Assembly: GCA_003696675.1 (NCBI GenBank)
Contig: RFGH01000195.1
Span: 52,806-116,805, forward strand
DNA from: Planctomycetota bacterium
Lineage (GTDB): Bacteria; Planctomycetota; Phycisphaerae; Phycisphaerales; UBA1924
Reading direction: 5' to 3'
DNA length: 64,000 nucleotides
In this document: piece by piece, positions 27,756 to 35,249 of the stretch
How the letters are laid out: every line of letters begins with the position of its first letter
Position numbering within the stretch: position 1 is the first letter of the stretch
Notes under the pieces: generated by a model
Database searches by the model: none
What the model saw: the letters and a program-made list of their open reading frames with translations, nothing else
Told to the model about the DNA's origin: nothing
Translations under genes and position numbers: made by a program

Positions 27756-28784
27756 TCAGGGGGCGACGGGCTGGCCGGTGTTGATTTCCTTGCCGCCGAT
27801 GTCGATGCCCTTCAGCCCGCCTCGGGTCCAGCGGACACGCCCGATCAGGCGTTCCATGCGGTCGCCGATGATGGGCGGCTCGAAGGCCTGCGGGCGGTAG
27901 AGCATGGTGGTCGGCTCGGCGGATTCCGGGCGGTTGGGCTTGAAGCCGGGATTGATGTCGGTGTTCTTGACGAAGCGGGACGAGCCGTCGAAGAGCAGCA
28001 GTTCGACATTGGCTTTGTCGTAGGCATAGAAGATGCCCTGGCGCTCGGAGTGGAAGTCGTAGAACTCGAACATGAAGGCCTTCTGGCTGGGGAAGGTGAC
28101 CTCGTACTGTTTGCGCTTGCCCAGCCGGTCGAGCGGGGCGCCGTTGAACCAGTTGTGGTCGCCGGGGCTTTGCTCGACGGTGCGTGCGCGGTTGGAGCCG
28201 ATGTCGGGCGACCACGACGCGGGCACGACCTGGTAGGTCGAGCTGAACCACCACCAGTCGTAGAACTGGTCCCACTGGCCGCCGGTGGGGACATTGGTGC
28301 GGTCGGTCGGATCGGCCTGCCACTGCTGGCGCTGGCGGTCGGAGGGGCAGGCGACGATCGGCTCGGGGAGGTTGAGCGTGAGGTAATCGATCAGCACGAG
28401 GTGGGTAAACTCGCGGTGCGGCAGCCTGTTGGGCGGCACGGGCATGTCGGTCAGATAGGTTCGGCGGCGGATGATGTCGGTGGCCTGCATGCGGGGGGCC
28501 GCGTCGACATCGGGCGCGAAGGCGAGGTCGTCGAAGATGCTGCCGGTCGGGCCGGGCTGCCACGAGTAGGCGGGGATGAAGTCGCGGCTGTCGTTGGCGT
28601 AGGTGCCCTGCGCGACGCCCATCTGCTTCTGGTTGGCCATACAGATGACCTTGCGGGCGCTCTCCCGGGCCGCCTGGATGGCGGGCAGCAGGATGCCGAT
28701 CAGCAATGCGATGATGGCGATGACCACCAGCAGCTCGATCAGGGTAAAGGCGCGGCGGGGGTGCGGAGGGCGGAGCGTCGGCAT
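27756..28784 (-). CDS. Planctomycete prepilin-type N-terminal cleavage/methylation protein
   Basis: '[36 protein letters not shown]' and C-terminal '[10 protein letters not shown]'. Confidence 0.92.
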
Positions 28785-28857
28785 GGGTGAGACCTCTTGG
28801 CGGGGGCGGGGCTCGGCCCGCTTGACGCCATTCTAACAGAAACGCCGCAAAAAGAAG

Positions 28858-28882
28858 CGGGGACCGAGAGAATCGGTCCCCG
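28858..28882 (-). terminator. Rho-independent terminator (minus strand)
   Basis: CGGGGACCGA / TCGGTCCCCG followed on the minus strand by CTTCTTTTT. Confidence 0.75.
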
Positions 28883-28912
28883 TTCAGAGATCAGGTGAGG
28901 GCGACTGTTGGC

Positions 28913-30064
28913 TTACGGGCCGCAGTCAACCGCAGAGGTGTCGGGCTCGAGCCCCGGATACTGACGGCGGCCGACATCCTCGCCGCCGTAGTCGATGCCC
29001 TGGAGCCCGAAGCGGGTCCAGCGGAAGCGGGTGCACAGCGGGCTGCCATTGCCCAAGCCCTCTTCCGGTTCGGGGAAAGTGTCGAGCGGGATGTACACTT
29101 GGCGCCATTCCTGGTCCGGGAAACGGGGGTTCCAACCGGGGTTGGCGTCGGCGGTCACAAGTCGGCGGACGGAGCCGTCGAAGAAGCTGAGGTTGCACTG
29201 GGCGTCGGGGTAGGCGAAGTACTTGCCGTTGCGATCGCTCAGGCGGTCGAACTCCTCGAACTGGAGCACCTTGCCGCCCGGGAAGGCGACCTGAGCGTAC
29301 TTGCGCTGGCCGAGGCGGACAATGCCTTGACCGCCGGAACGGTTCGGGTCGTACGCTTGGAAGAGATGCGGGGTGTCGGCCACCGGGATGTAGGTGGCGG
29401 TGCCGATGCCGTCGGTGTTCCACGCGACGGGGACGGTCTGGTAGCTCGACGCGAAGGCCCACTTGTTCCGAACCTGCTCGTTGGGCCAGTTGCCATCGCT
29501 ATCGTAACCTGCGCCCGGACTGCCGTTGGCGTACGGCACGGTGCTGCCGGGCCCGTAGTTGAGTGGGTCGGCGGCCCAGTCGAGTTGGTTCTTATCGAAC
29601 GGCGACGAGGCAATCTGCTCGGGCTGGGTGTCCGAGAGGTAGTCGAGCAGGGTCACATGGCTCCAACGACGCTGCCACAGACGGCCTGTCCAAGTCGGAT
29701 CAAAGTCATCGCACCGCCCGGTGACGCGGCGCAGGATCTCGACGATCTGAGCGGACGAGGCATCGAGGTCGGTCGCAACGAGCACGGTCTCGTCGCAGCC
29801 CACATTGTAGGGGGTCTTGACGAAGCCCTTGCCGTTGGGGTTGGGCTTGTAGCCGGTCCAGCTGAAGCTGAATATGCGGTCACCGTTGTCGGCGGCGTAG
29901 GAGTTGGCGCCGACATTGAGCTGGCGCATGCGGTTCTGGGACAGCACATTCCTGGCGGAATCGCGTGCCTTGCCGATAGCCGGCAGCAGGATGCCGATGA
30001 GCAGCGCGATGATCGCAATGACCACGAGCAGCTCAATCAGCGTGAAAGCCTTCTTGTTCTTCAC
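28913..30064 (-). CDS. Planctomycete prepilin-type N-terminal cleavage/methylation protein (second copy)
   Basis: GTG start '[39 protein letters not shown]'; C-terminal 'LSFFDGSVRRL'. Confidence 0.9.
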   Translation of the reverse strand: MKNKKAFTLIELLVVIAIIALLIGILLPAIGKARDSARNVLSQNRMRQLNVGANSYAADNGDRIFSFSWTGYKPNPNGKGFVKTPYNVGCDETVLVATDLDASSAQIVEILRRVTGRCDDFDPTWTGRLWQRRWSHVTLLDYLSDTQPEQIASSPFDKNQLDWAADPLNYGPGSTVPYANGSPGAGYDSDGNWPNEQVRNKWAFASSYQTVPVAWNTDGIGTATYIPVADTPHLFQAYDPNRSGGQGIVRLGQRKYAQVAFPGGKVLQFEEFDRLSDRNGKYFAYPDAQCNLSFFDGSVRRLVTADANPGWNPRFPDQEWRQVYIPLDTFPEPEEGLGNGSPLCTRFRWTRFGLQGIDYGGEDVGRRQYPGLEPDTSAVDCGP

Positions 30065-30312
30065 GGTGACCTCCGTTGGACCCTTTGTGCTCCCGAACGC
30101 CCACGGTAGGGGGTGATGCCGGGATCGCCGGAGCGCTGGATCGGCCCTCCGAGACCGATCCGCTTGTTTCGATTCGTCCCCAGACGGGGGTCGGTTCCAG
30201 CCGGGGGCGTTTCGCCCGCGACATTCTCGGCCGCCGTTCACGGGACCGTATTTATACGGCCTTGACACGCCGGATGCAACCTCCGACCCAAAACCAGTTG
30301 CGTACAAAGTCC

Positions 30313-31782
30313 TTACATTGCATTGGGGTGGACAAAACCGCGGATCAGGGTGAGACCGAGAATCCGCAGGTCGAGCCAGATGGACCAGTTGCGGATGTAG
30401 AACAGGTCGTACTGCAGACGCTTGCGGAGGCTGGTATCCCCTCGGAAGCCATGGACTTGCGCCCAGCCGGTCATCCCGGCTTTGACATGCTGGCGGAGCA
30501 TGTAGCCTCGCCAGTCGTCGCGGAAGCGGTCGATCAGTTCGGGACGCTCCGGGCGGGGCCCGACGAGGGCCATGTCGCCGCGGAGGACATTGAAGAGCTG
30601 GGGAAGTTCATCGAGGCTGGTTTTGCGGAGCCATCGCCCGACGCGGGTGACGCGGTCATCGTCGCGGGCGGTCCAGGCGGGGAGCCCGGTCTCGTCGGCG
30701 AGGTGACGCATGGTGCGGAACTTGTAGATCTGGAAGGACTCGCCGCCGAGGCTGATGCGGGTCTGGCGGAAGATGATTGGGCCGGGGGAATCGAGACGGA
30801 CGGCGATGGCGGCCGCGAGCATGACGGGCGCGAAGATACACAGGGCGATGCAGGCGCCGACGATATCAATGGCGCGTTTGAGGACCCCGCCGGGGCCGGA
30901 GAGGGGGGACTCGCGGTAGCTGAGGATGGGCATGCCCTCGAGTTCGGACACGGCCATGCTCACGGGGAGGTATCGCGGCTGGACATCGGGTATGACGCGG
31001 ACATCGACGGCGTGTCGTTCGAGCCTGCGGAGGAGGCCGGCCAGTTCGCCGCCCATGGACCCGGGCAGAGCGACATATACCGCGTCGACGGGGCGTGCGT
31101 CGATGATGGCGTCGAGGTCGGCCAGCCCCCCCACTACCGGCACGCCTTGGCACTCGGTGCGCTGGGTCTGGGCGTGGTGGCTGATGAAGTAGGCAACGCC
31201 CAGACCGGTCCAGGCGTTGCGGGTGAGGGTGCGGTGGGCGATCTGCCCAAGCCGCCCGGTGCCGACGATGGCGACATGGCGGAGGTTGCGCCCGCGCCGT
31301 CGCATGGCGCGGAGAACCAGACGCAGCCCGAGTCGCTGCACGCCGACCAGGCCTGGGATCAGCACCGCGAGCGCCCCGAGCTGGAGCCGCGCGGGATCGG
31401 TGATCGCCACGCCCAGCACGATCGGCGTCGGCGAGCCGGGCGGGAGCGGGGCCTGGAGCAACCCGCTGCCGATCGCCCAGAGGGTCACCACGATCGTGCC
31501 GACCGAGACCAGACCCGCGCGGCAAACGAGCCAGAACTCCCCGAAGAGGGACCCCTCGCGCCGGGGTTTGTAGAGTCCGAGGGCGGCGAGGGTGGCGACG
31601 GTCACCGGCACGGACACGGCGATGAGTGCGGCGCGGACCCATCCGATGGCACCGGCGGGCCACGGTTCGGCCGGAAAGACGGCGTGGCGGACAAGGACGG
31701 CGGCGAACGACGCGGCGGCGACGGCAACGGCGTCGGCCACGCCGAAGAGGGTCACGAAGAGCCGGTGGCGTTGTTTGAGCAT
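30313..31782 (-). CDS. Exopolysaccharide polyprenyl-glycosylphosphotransferase (undecaprenyl-phosphate sugar transferase)
   Basis: '[57 protein letters not shown]', '[30 protein letters not shown]', '[35 protein letters not shown]'. Confidence 0.95.
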
Positions 31783-31818: not shown

Positions 31819-32403
31819 TCACACGCCGGAGCGGGGGTCAACCGGGGTGGCGGGATGTTCCCCATCGAGCAGGTCGTCGCCGGAGGCCCGCACGACGCGG
31901 ATCACCACGATGAGGTCTCCGCTGGTGCGCGCGGCGAGGCGCACGCCCCGACCCGGCACGCGGATTTCCTCGGCGTCGCGGACGCCCGGGGGGACGCGGA
32001 TGGTGATCGTGCCGCCGGCGGGCACCGGCACGGGGGCGGACACTCCGCGCGCGGCCTCGTGCGCGGAGATCGGGTACTCAAGCTCGAGGTCATCGGTGCC
32101 CGGGCGACGCCGGAATCGGGTCTGGGGGCGTCTCGGTGCGGCGGATCGTCGCGAGAAGAACGCGTCGTAGACGCCGGAAGGCTCGTGCTCATCGGGATCG
32201 TGCGAGACCGGCTCGGGATCGGGACAGGCGGGCTGTTCGGTGAGGATCTCGTAGGCGCGGGCGATCTCGGCGAAGATGGCCGCGGACTCGGGCGTGCCGG
32301 AGACATCGGGGTGGTGGCGGCGGGCGAGGGCGCGATAGGCGCGGCGGATCTGCTCGGGGCTGGCACCCCGTGGAACACCGAGGACTTCGTGCGGCGGACG
32401 CAT
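31819..32403 (-). CDS. DnaJ-domain protein
   Basis: 'PHEVLGVPRGASPEQIRRAYRALARRHHPDVSGTPESAAIFAEIARAYEILTE'; start at 32403 because the upstream extension contains a terminator hairpin. Confidence 0.88.
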   Translation of the reverse strand: MRPPHEVLGVPRGASPEQIRRAYRALARRHHPDVSGTPESAAIFAEIARAYEILTEQPACPDPEPVSHDPDEHEPSGVYDAFFSRRSAAPRRPQTRFRRRPGTDDLELEYPISAHEAARGVSAPVPVPAGGTITIRVPPGVRDAEEIRVPGRGVRLAARTSGDLIVVIRVVRASGDDLLDGEHPATPVDPRSGV

Positions 32404-32431: not shown

Positions 32432-32460
32432 ACGCGGCGTTCCCGATGGGAACGCCGCGT
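32432..32460 (-). terminator. Hairpin terminator between the FKBP fusion gene and the dnaJ-like gene
   Basis: 13-bp arms ACGCGGCGTTCCC / GGGAACGCCGCGT, T-rich on the minus strand. Confidence 0.7.
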
Positions 32461-32487: not shown

Positions 32488-33597
32488 TCAGTCCTGGGGA
32501 GCGGTCTCCGACGCGTCGTTGGCGGTCGGGGCGGGCTCGGTCTTCTCGACGAGAACGAGATGGATGTTGAAAAGGAGCGGCGCGTCGGCGGGGATGCCGG
32601 CGCGGGGGTTGCCGTTGGCGCCGTAGCCGAGATAGCCCGGGATGATGAGCTTGCGGCGGCCGCCCTGGGCGAAGTTGTCCATGCCGATGCCCCAGCCGGT
32701 GATGGCGCGGGTTCCGGGGGGATAGGCGAAGATGAAGGGCTGGCCGCGGGTGTAGGAGGAGTCGAACCGCGTGCCGTCCATAAGGAAGCCCTCGTAGTGG
32801 ACATGCATGCGGTCGCCATTGGCGACGAGCGGGCCTGAGGCCCCGCCGTAATCGAGGATGACCATGCCGTCTTCACGGCGCTGGACGGAGACCGGGCTTT
32901 GGGCACGCTCGAAGACAAATGCCTTGTCGCCCGAACCGCCCCAGACCACATTCCCTTGGGCGTCGAAGCCTCGGTCCGCGACGGTGAGGGTATCACCGGA
33001 GAGGTTGACGGAGGAGGTCATCTCGACTGCGCCGCCGGCCCCGGTGGGGAAGGGATAGGGCGAGGAGCCGGTGAAGCCCTCGGAGGTCGGGCGGATATCG
33101 ATGTCCATGGTGGCGATGAGGTCATCGCGGGAGAGCCGGGGGAACCACTCCGGGGCGGCGTACATGCCGTCGAAGGCGCCGTCGGAGGCTTTGCCGACGG
33201 CGAGCTCGTAGGTGCGGAGACGGTGGCCGTCCTTATAGGGGTAGATCTGAAAGATGGCCCGGCGGTAGGGCGTCCAGGGGGAGTCGCTGCGGGCGGTCTC
33301 GACATAGAGCGTGTCGGAGATGCCCTCGACCGGGGCGGGGGCAATGGACATGATGATGTAGGCGTCGTTGGTGGAGCCGTCGGCGCCCTTCATGGTCTCG
33401 ATGGGGTCCACGGTGCGCCACGAGCCGGTCAGTCCGGTCGCCACGCGGGCGATCTCGGGGCTGGACCAGGAGGGGGTGTAGAGTTCTCGGGCCTTGGTGG
33501 GGGTAGATCCGGCCTCCGAGGCGTTCTGAGCGACGGCGGCGGAGCCGGAAAACGCCAGAAGGGCGATTCCGATGGTGGCGAGTTTCGATATCATCAT
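32488..33597 (-). CDS. Exported CpcT/CpeT-like domain fused to FKBP-type peptidyl-prolyl isomerase
   Basis: C-terminal FKBP 'GDRMHVHYEGFLMDGTRFDSSYTRGQPFIFAYPPGTRAITGWGIGMDNFAQGGRRKLIIPGYLGYG'; N-terminal part ends 'DTLTVADRGFDAQGNVVWGGSGDKAFVFER', resembling the CpcT/CpeT family; signal peptide. Confidence 0.85.
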   Translation of the reverse strand: MMISKLATIGIALLAFSGSAAVAQNASEAGSTPTKARELYTPSWSSPEIARVATGLTGSWRTVDPIETMKGADGSTNDAYIIMSIAPAPVEGISDTLYVETARSDSPWTPYRRAIFQIYPYKDGHRLRTYELAVGKASDGAFDGMYAAPEWFPRLSRDDLIATMDIDIRPTSEGFTGSSPYPFPTGAGGAVEMTSSVNLSGDTLTVADRGFDAQGNVVWGGSGDKAFVFERAQSPVSVQRREDGMVILDYGGASGPLVANGDRMHVHYEGFLMDGTRFDSSYTRGQPFIFAYPPGTRAITGWGIGMDNFAQGGRRKLIIPGYLGYGANGNPRAGIPADAPLLFNIHLVLVEKTEPAPTANDASETAPQD

Positions 33598-33691
33598 CGC
33601 GTGATTCTCCGATGAGGGTTCTGTCCAGTTCCCGAAACCGGGGCGACTCTAGGCCGTACGGGTCTGCTGGGGACGGTTCGTGAGGGCATCG

Positions 33692-34219
33692 ATGGGTACG
33701 AACGGCTCGAGCAAACTGTTTGAAACGCCCGCGGGGATCCGCATCATCGACCGGATCGACCTCTCGTGTGAGTCCACGGTGGCGTTCGAGTGGCCGGAGG
33801 ACGGGCTGGCGGCGGGGGAAGACCTGTTCATCGGGTTTGATCCGGAGGCCCGGATCGCTCGCGTGCGGGACGGGACGATGGTGCCGGTCGATGCCGCTCC
33901 GGTGATCCGGCGTCGCCCCGGGGGGCGGCCGGCGCTGATGACCCGGGGAGCGCGGTTCGTGTACGCGATGGTCGGACTTTGCCTGAGCGTCGGCGTGCTC
34001 GCGCTGGCGGCCGTGACCGCGCAGGAGGCGCTGCTCTGGATCTCGACGATCGGCACGATCGTGTGCGGGGTCTGGTTCATGGCCAGTTTGCTGATGTGGC
34101 TGGACCGCTCGCCGTACTTCTACCGGCTGATGACCTCACTCGGCGAGAATGCAGACAACATCTCGCAGTTGACGGTGCTTCGCTGGCTTCGGCAGAGCGT
34201 ACGGTCGCTGTACTCCTGA
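33692..34219 (+). CDS. Membrane protein of unknown function
   Basis: ORF with two hydrophobic segments ('FVYAMVGLCLSVGVLALAAV', 'LLWISTIGTIVCGVWFMASLLMW'). Confidence 0.65.
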   Translation: MGTNGSSKLFETPAGIRIIDRIDLSCESTVAFEWPEDGLAAGEDLFIGFDPEARIARVRDGTMVPVDAAPVIRRRPGGRPALMTRGARFVYAMVGLCLSVGVLALAAVTAQEALLWISTIGTIVCGVWFMASLLMWLDRSPYFYRLMTSLGENADNISQLTVLRWLRQSVRSLYS

Positions 34220-34295: not shown

Positions 34296-35249
34296 TCAGC
34301 TCAGTTCGGGGAACATCTTCTTGACGATGTTGACCAGATCGGAGACATGCGAGGCGGACTCCTCGAACAGCTTCTGCTCTTCGGCGGTGAGCTTGAACTC
34401 CACGACCTTTTCGACGCCGTCCTTGCCGAGCATCGCCGGCACACCGACGAACAGGCCCTTGACACCGAACTGGCCGTCGCAGTAGACCGCGGAGGGGATG
34501 ATGCGCTTTTTGTCCTTGACGATGGCCTCGACCATCTGGATCGTGCCCAGGGCCGGGGCGTAGTAGGCGCTCGTGCCCATGAGCTTGACGATCTCGCCGC
34601 CGCCGACCTTGGCACGCTCGACGCACGCGTTGATCTTTTCGGCGGGGAGCAGGTCGGTGACGGGGATGCCATGGACGGAGGTCAGACGGGGCAGCGGGAC
34701 CATGTCGTCGCCGTGCCCGCCGAGGAGGAGGGCCTGGACATCCTCGACGGAGACGCCGAGTTCCCATGCGATGAAGGCGCGGTAGCGGGCACAGTCCAGG
34801 GCGCCTGCCTGGCCCATGATGCGCTGGGTCGGGAAGCCGGTGGCCTTCCACGCGGTGTAGACCATCGCGTCGAGGGGGTTGGAGACGACGATGACGATCG
34901 AATCCGGGGCGTGCTGCTTGATCTGCTCGGAGACGGACTTGACGATCTTGACATTCGTCTCGATCAGGTCGTCGCGGCTCATGCCGGGCTTGCGGGGCAG
35001 GCCGGCGGTGATGACAACGACATCGGAGCCGGCGATGTCCTTGTAGTCGGCGGTGCCGACGAGCTTCCCATCGAAGCCGTCGATGGGGGCACAGCAGCCC
35101 AGATCGATCATCTTGCCCTTGGCGACGCCCTCTTTTTCGGGGATATCGAGCAGGACGATATCGCCGAGTTCCTTGGCGGCGGCCCAATGGGCGCAGGTCG
35201 CGCCGACATTGCCGGCTCCGATGATCGAGATCTTGGCACGCTGGGGCAT
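34296..35249 (-). CDS. mdh: Malate dehydrogenase (lactate dehydrogenase-like)
   Basis: 'KISIIGAGNVGATCAHWAAAKELGDIVLLDIPEKEGVAKGKMIDL', 'SNPLDAMVYTAWKATGFPTQRIMGQAG', 'LLLGGHGDDMVPL'. Confidence 0.96.
   Translation of the reverse strand: MPQRAKISIIGAGNVGATCAHWAAAKELGDIVLLDIPEKEGVAKGKMIDLGCCAPIDGFDGKLVGTADYKDIAGSDVVVITAGLPRKPGMSRDDLIETNVKIVKSVSEQIKQHAPDSIVIVVSNPLDAMVYTAWKATGFPTQRIMGQAGALDCARYRAFIAWELGVSVEDVQALLLGGHGDDMVPLPRLTSVHGIPVTDLLPAEKINACVERAKVGGGEIVKLMGTSAYYAPALGTIQMVEAIVKDKKRIIPSAVYCDGQFGVKGLFVGVPAMLGKDGVEKVVEFKLTAEEQKLFEESASHVSDLVNIVKKMFPELS

Follow-up and report, generated by a model that had tools for sequence, protein, structure and literature searches.

Descriptions of CpeT/CpcT proteins nearly always cast them as enzymes of the phycobilisome. 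A gene in the 64,000-nucleotide stretch of planctomycete DNA analysed here (hereafter, the window) raises the question of what such a domain is used for when it is joined to an FKBP-type prolyl isomerase. A sequence-only reading of the window had proposed that the gene encodes an exported fusion of a CpcT/CpeT-like domain to an FKBP, outside any phycobilisome context, and that the protein represents a repurposed ligand-binding or chaperone module. A full-text search of the open-licence PMC literature found no description of a CpeT-FKBP protein.

Domain organization and fold of the fusion protein

The ORF was confirmed at exactly the ends given in Table 1, and a confident two-domain model was obtained for the whole protein (pLDDT 86.9, pTM 0.81). 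In Pfam searches, the window protein matched both CpeT/CpcT (PF06206; residues 79-231, E=1.2e-15, 58.3 bits versus a cut-off of 21) and FKBP_C (PF00254; residues 258-348, E=3.1e-22, 79.1 bits, well above the cut-off), as the sequence-only reading had anticipated, and all 34 scanned fusion homologues matched both families (E<=0.01 for PF06206). The two motif blocks quoted in that reading are also present, namely PYRRAIFQIYP near residue 110 and DRGFDAQGNVVWGG near residue 208. Judged by eye, the N-terminus resembles a signal peptide and contains no lipobox cysteine, suggesting that the protein is exported, in agreement with the earlier proposal; a hydrophobic N-terminus is found in the listed homologues of the fusion as well. 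His/Asp-rich tails, such as GHDHSDHDGHDHSDED, are present at the C-termini of 16 of the 34 fusions (L040 and L039 among them) and bring to mind the tail with which the FKBP SlyD binds metal; the window protein has no such tail.

Table 1. Features of the fusion gene and its neighbourhood (positions in the window)
Feature	Position	Strand	Evidence or remark
CpeT/CRL-FKBP fusion gene	32488..33597	(-)	369 aa; stop included in coordinates
Signal-peptide-like N-terminus, residues 1-23	33529..33597	(-)	MMISKLATIGIALLAFSGSAAVA, AVA followed by Q; sequence, by eye
CpeT/CRL-type calyx domain, residues 44-236 (Pfam match 79-231)	32890..33468	(-)	Pfam; profile-profile comparison; PDB search by profile; Foldseek
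PYRRA block, residues 110-114	33256..33270	(-)	Ala replaces second Arg of lyase PYRxR block
Arg128	33214..33216	(-)	Invariant across fusion family
FKBP-type PPIase domain, residues 258-348	32554..32826	(-)	Pfam FKBP_C and motif-assigned FKBP12 residues
Intrinsic-terminator-like hairpin	32432..32460	(-)	Stem of 13 bp, loop of 3 bases; closely follows fusion, ahead of likely dnaJ start
DnaJ-domain protein (DnaJ + DnaJ_C)	31819..32403	(-)	Pfam; likely ATG at 32403; next to fusion at most loci of the family
Polyprenyl-phosphate sugar transferase (CoA_binding_3 + Bac_transf)	30313..31782	(-)	Pfam; conserved neighbour
Divergent small protein	33680..34219	(+)	DUF4337 match below threshold; neighbour is conserved and, in some relatives, duplicated
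Malate/lactate dehydrogenase (Ldh_1_N + Ldh_1_C)	34296..35249	(-)	Pfam; conserved neighbour upstream of fusion

The Pfam match, the profile comparisons with stand-alone CpeTs and with the PDB, and the fold search rule out a chance resemblance of the motifs. The fused domain aligned with 11 stand-alone planctomycete CpeTs over 180 columns (hhalign profile-profile comparison; 99.7% probability, E=4e-26, 26% identity), and a sequence search of the PDB with the fused-domain profile retrieved CRL (E=1.2e-7) and CpcT (E=9e-4). AlphaFold2 modelled the calyx alone with a mean pLDDT of 92.8. A Foldseek search with this model yielded four PDB matches at E<0.001 (TM 0.66-0.73), all of which were Arabidopsis CRL or cyanobacterial CpcT, including CRL 6LIX (E=4e-10, TM 0.73) and CpcT 4O4S/4O4O (E=2e-8 to 5e-8, TM 0.72-0.73); the next match was nitrobindin (E=0.004). 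By sequence and predicted fold, the N-terminal domain is a genuine CpeT/CRL-type calyx.

The best profile and fold match of the fused calyx is CRL (CRUMPLED LEAF; PDB 6LIX/6LIY), which shares the calyx fold, lacks the two lyase-type cysteines as the fusions do, and is reported to work outside phycobilisomes (PMC11135702; PMC10542568). However, the matched CRL chain has no FKBP domain, both arginines of its PxRxR block are intact, and CRL sits in the plastid outer envelope. The T-type lyases CpcT/CpeT (4O4O/4O4S) have in common with the fusion the Pfam family, the fold, the conserved E of the VEQA block and the D of DRG, but the fusion lacks the second arginine of the PYRxR block and the cysteine pair, carries a signal peptide and an FKBP domain in addition, and is encoded in a genome in which no phycobiliprotein was detected. 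The stand-alone planctomycete CpeTs have a domain homologous to the fused calyx, but keep PYRQR and both cysteines and stand on tree branches separate from the fusions.

Loss of lyase residues and conservation of the calyx

The second arginine of the PYRxR block is present in all 48 stand-alone planctomycete CpeTs, in CpcT and in CRL, whereas all 34 fusions have A, S or T at this position. Each cysteine of the lyase pair is kept in 47 of the 48 stand-alone CpeTs, and both are kept in CpcT; at the aligned positions of the window protein's domain, they are absent from every one of the 34 fusions, and CRL also lacks both. Because none of the fusions examined keeps the lyase arginine or cysteines, a repurposed calyx, as proposed in the sequence-only reading, is the best reading, and, judging from these residues, a bilin lyase function of the fusion is unlikely. 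The ligand-binding or chaperone part of that proposal appears plausible from fold and conservation. The genome of the window also encodes a second CpeT, a canonical stand-alone lipoprotein-like protein (L001:1393-2031, G000:C112; 157 bits), which differs from the fusion in its lipoprotein-like signal and is a better candidate than the fusion for any bilin-related job.

The mean pairwise identity among the fusions is 0.46 in the calyx, 0.42 in the FKBP, 0.21 in the linker and 0.16 in the tail. The calyx is at least as conserved as the FKBP, which indicates constraint on both parts. Thirteen residues are invariant inside the calyx of the fusions, several of which are charged (E100, R128, D165, E192 and D208). 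Position 128 is Arg in all fusions but mostly D/E in the stand-alone CpeTs.

Distribution, ancestry and genomic neighbourhood

With one query, a match spanning both domains was found in about 121 of 150 genomes, partly incomplete MAGs, that were sampled from the bacterial family of the window. Among the matches listed for a 392-genome sample of the phylum, the calyx was reached only in the window's family, and elsewhere the FKBP alone was covered. The fusion and its neighbourhood are repeated in 31 named contigs, nearly all of which are from Phycisphaerales or Planctomycetota MAGs. In a tree with stand-alone CpeTs, CpcT and CRL, the fused calyces group together as a single clade (support 100/100) on a long stem; the placement of CpcT and CRL in this tree is unreliable because of their very long branches. 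The fusion is family-wide, has a single origin and has been vertically kept. The probability that it is an assembly or annotation artefact, in which two genes were joined by chance, is negligible, since the same fusion and gene order recur in these family genomes, single-contig ones included, and in the named contigs, and nothing was found in favour of such an artefact. A recent origin of the fused calyx from a stand-alone CpeT of the same family is unsupported, as the fusions form one long-branched clade.

The fusion was also found in a record titled 'Cyanobacteria bacterium CYA' (L119, RHKP01000014.1), a title that probably reflects a mislabelled MAG. Of 294 genomes sampled across the phylum, 23 have a CpeT domain, and, together with the stand-alone copy in the window's genome, this corrects the impression that a CpeT outside cyanobacteria is a rarity.

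Of 24 fusion regions, several of which end at a contig edge, 19 contained mdh, 16 dnaJ and 16 the sugar transferase gene; the fusion usually lies beside these three genes. Two terminator-like hairpins were found in the region, compared with 0.9 in shuffles, and the one that follows the fusion argues against co-transcription with dnaJ. An operon comprising the fusion and dnaJ is weakened both by this hairpin and by relatives in which no dnaJ was detected beside the fusion. No Rfam match was obtained in the 26-42 kb part of the window. Two type IV pilin-like genes (N_methyl; one with DUF1559) adjoin the sugar transferase gene at 27756-30307, and similar genes are present there in many relatives.

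The FKBP domain

Y268, F278, D279, W302, Y325 and F343 of the window protein were assigned by motif to Y26, F36, D37, W59, Y82 and F99 of FKBP12, all of which are kept. The same residues are highly represented in the 34 fusions (Y26, F36 and F99 in 33 each, D37 and Y82 in 31 each and W59 in 29), and the assignment of this part of the protein as an FKBP-type isomerase is well supported by sequence. The site is eroded in genus g2 (L021-L024), where W59 is replaced by F or M, D37 in some cases by E and Y82 in some cases by F; catalysis may therefore not be needed everywhere.

In Foldseek searches, the FKBP part matched FkpA and Mip structures, and its closest NCBIfam models include FkpA (PRK10902) and, more weakly, BamJ (NF053689), an FKBP-like protein of the beta-barrel assembly machinery. 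The window protein scores below the equivalog cut-offs of both models (70.7 versus 215 bits for FkpA and 47 versus 100 bits for BamJ). The BamJ model was matched by the FKBP part of all 34 fusions, but the match is confined to the FKBP region.

Proposed function and alternatives

FkpA and Mip consist of dimerising N-terminal helices followed by an FKBP. The fusion resembles these exported FKBPs in having a secretion signal, an N-terminal accessory domain and a C-terminal FKBP, but its accessory domain is a CpeT/CRL calyx instead of dimerising helices. The reading that we favour, to which we assign about an even chance, is that the fusion is an exported isomerase/chaperone of the FkpA kind, encoded by a single gene, in which the CRL-type calyx serves to hold clients or a hydrophobic ligand. 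The terminator-like hairpin that follows the gene speaks for this reading. It is favoured because the FKBP residues are kept, the two domains are about equally conserved, and FkpA and BamJ are among the closest models. The signal peptide recognized by eye would send the protein across the inner membrane, and the C-terminal FKBP, judging from its kept active-site residues, would catalyse prolyl cis-trans isomerisation. The calyx, a bilin-lyase fold without the lyase residues, may keep envelope proteins, whether unfolded or partner ones, or else a hydrophobic ligand, near the isomerase, and would thereby do for the FKBP roughly what the N-terminal domain does in FkpA or Mip; fold and conservation are the grounds on which we infer this holding role. 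Against a folding factor, the neighbouring mdh, dnaJ and sugar transferase genes are not obviously envelope-folding genes.

The calyx might instead be a sensor or carrier of a lipid, a quinone or another hydrophobic molecule, whose acid group is possibly held by Arg128, with the ligand regulating the FKBP or the FKBP aiding delivery. The relationship of the calyx fold to lipocalin-like proteins, which is seen in the weaker Foldseek matches (nitrobindin, siderocalin, FABP and a hemophore), and the invariant polar residues within the calyx speak for such a role, and the five invariant charged residues could equally well form a specific small-ligand site; however, the conserved neighbourhood contains no ligand pathway gene, and we regard this alternative as rather unlikely.

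A more specific alternative is that the calyx still binds a heme-derived bilin, which it attaches to some envelope protein or sequesters. No match to phycobiliprotein (PF00502), ferredoxin-dependent bilin reductase (PF05996) or the phytochrome PHY domain was found in the window's genome, which is about 92% complete. The lack of phycobilisome context noted in the sequence-only reading is thus borne out, with the qualification that a heme oxygenase gene is present (L091:4952-5737, G000:C65), so that biliverdin could be made. Heme oxygenase was found in 109 of the 150 family genomes, and this, together with the membership of the calyx in the CpeT/CpcT fold family, is in line with bilin binding. 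A further point in its favour is a locus of another genome (L150:560-2845, G427:C9), in which a heme oxygenase gene lies directly upstream of a stand-alone CpeT gene on the same strand and an exported FKBP gene is convergent to both, though, of the 48 stand-alone CpeT loci whose flanks were fetched, no other has a heme oxygenase match there. On the other hand, the co-occurrence of heme oxygenase and the fusion is no greater than expected (both in 90 genomes, fusion only in 32, heme oxygenase only in 19 and neither in 9; Fisher p=0.64, uncorrected for kinship and incompleteness; the fusion set of 122 includes G405, with a partial match at 1-251), so that a link between the two was rejected. With the loss of the second PYRxR arginine and both cysteines from all fusions, and the absence of detected phycobiliprotein, bilin reductase and phytochrome, we consider bilin binding by the fusion improbable. 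In the window's genome, the heme oxygenase gene adjoins a long ORF that, by eye, resembles a sodium/dicarboxylate symporter.

The resemblance to CRL leads to another idea. OEP80 is an Omp85 protein, and one Omp85 match was found in the window's genome. CRL is a plastid outer-envelope protein linked to plastid division (PMC2408579; PMC11135702), and PMC10542568 gives its function as 'OEP80 insertion', with reference to a study whose title describes CRL as supporting TOC75-V/OEP80 complex formation. The role listed there for CRL is Omp85 assembly rather than a demonstrated lyase role. Taken together, these points raise the attractive idea of outer-membrane biogenesis, namely that the fusion might be a dedicated factor in which a CRL-type calyx aids assembly of the Omp85/BamA complex and is permanently linked to a prolyl isomerase of the periplasm. 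This reading, drawn by analogy, has a low probability in our estimation; if it is true, Omp85 assistance, not bilin attachment, would be a function common to some CpeT/CRL family members of bacteria and plastids.

Finally, the calyx could be a mere dimerisation or spacer module for the FKBP. CpcT is reportedly a crystallographic dimer, according to a 2014 paper on this protein, and the arrangement of an N-terminal domain and an FKBP parallels that of FkpA and Mip. Thirteen invariant residues, several of them charged, would be needless for a mere spacer, making this explanation very doubtful.

Implications

Our analysis suggests that the calyx has been reused in this family for something other than pigment attachment. 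The role of plant CRL in plastid division and envelope assembly is poorly explained, and a family-wide bacterial calyx without the lyase residues, fused to a folding enzyme, provides a soluble system for probing what the calyx does beyond bilins.
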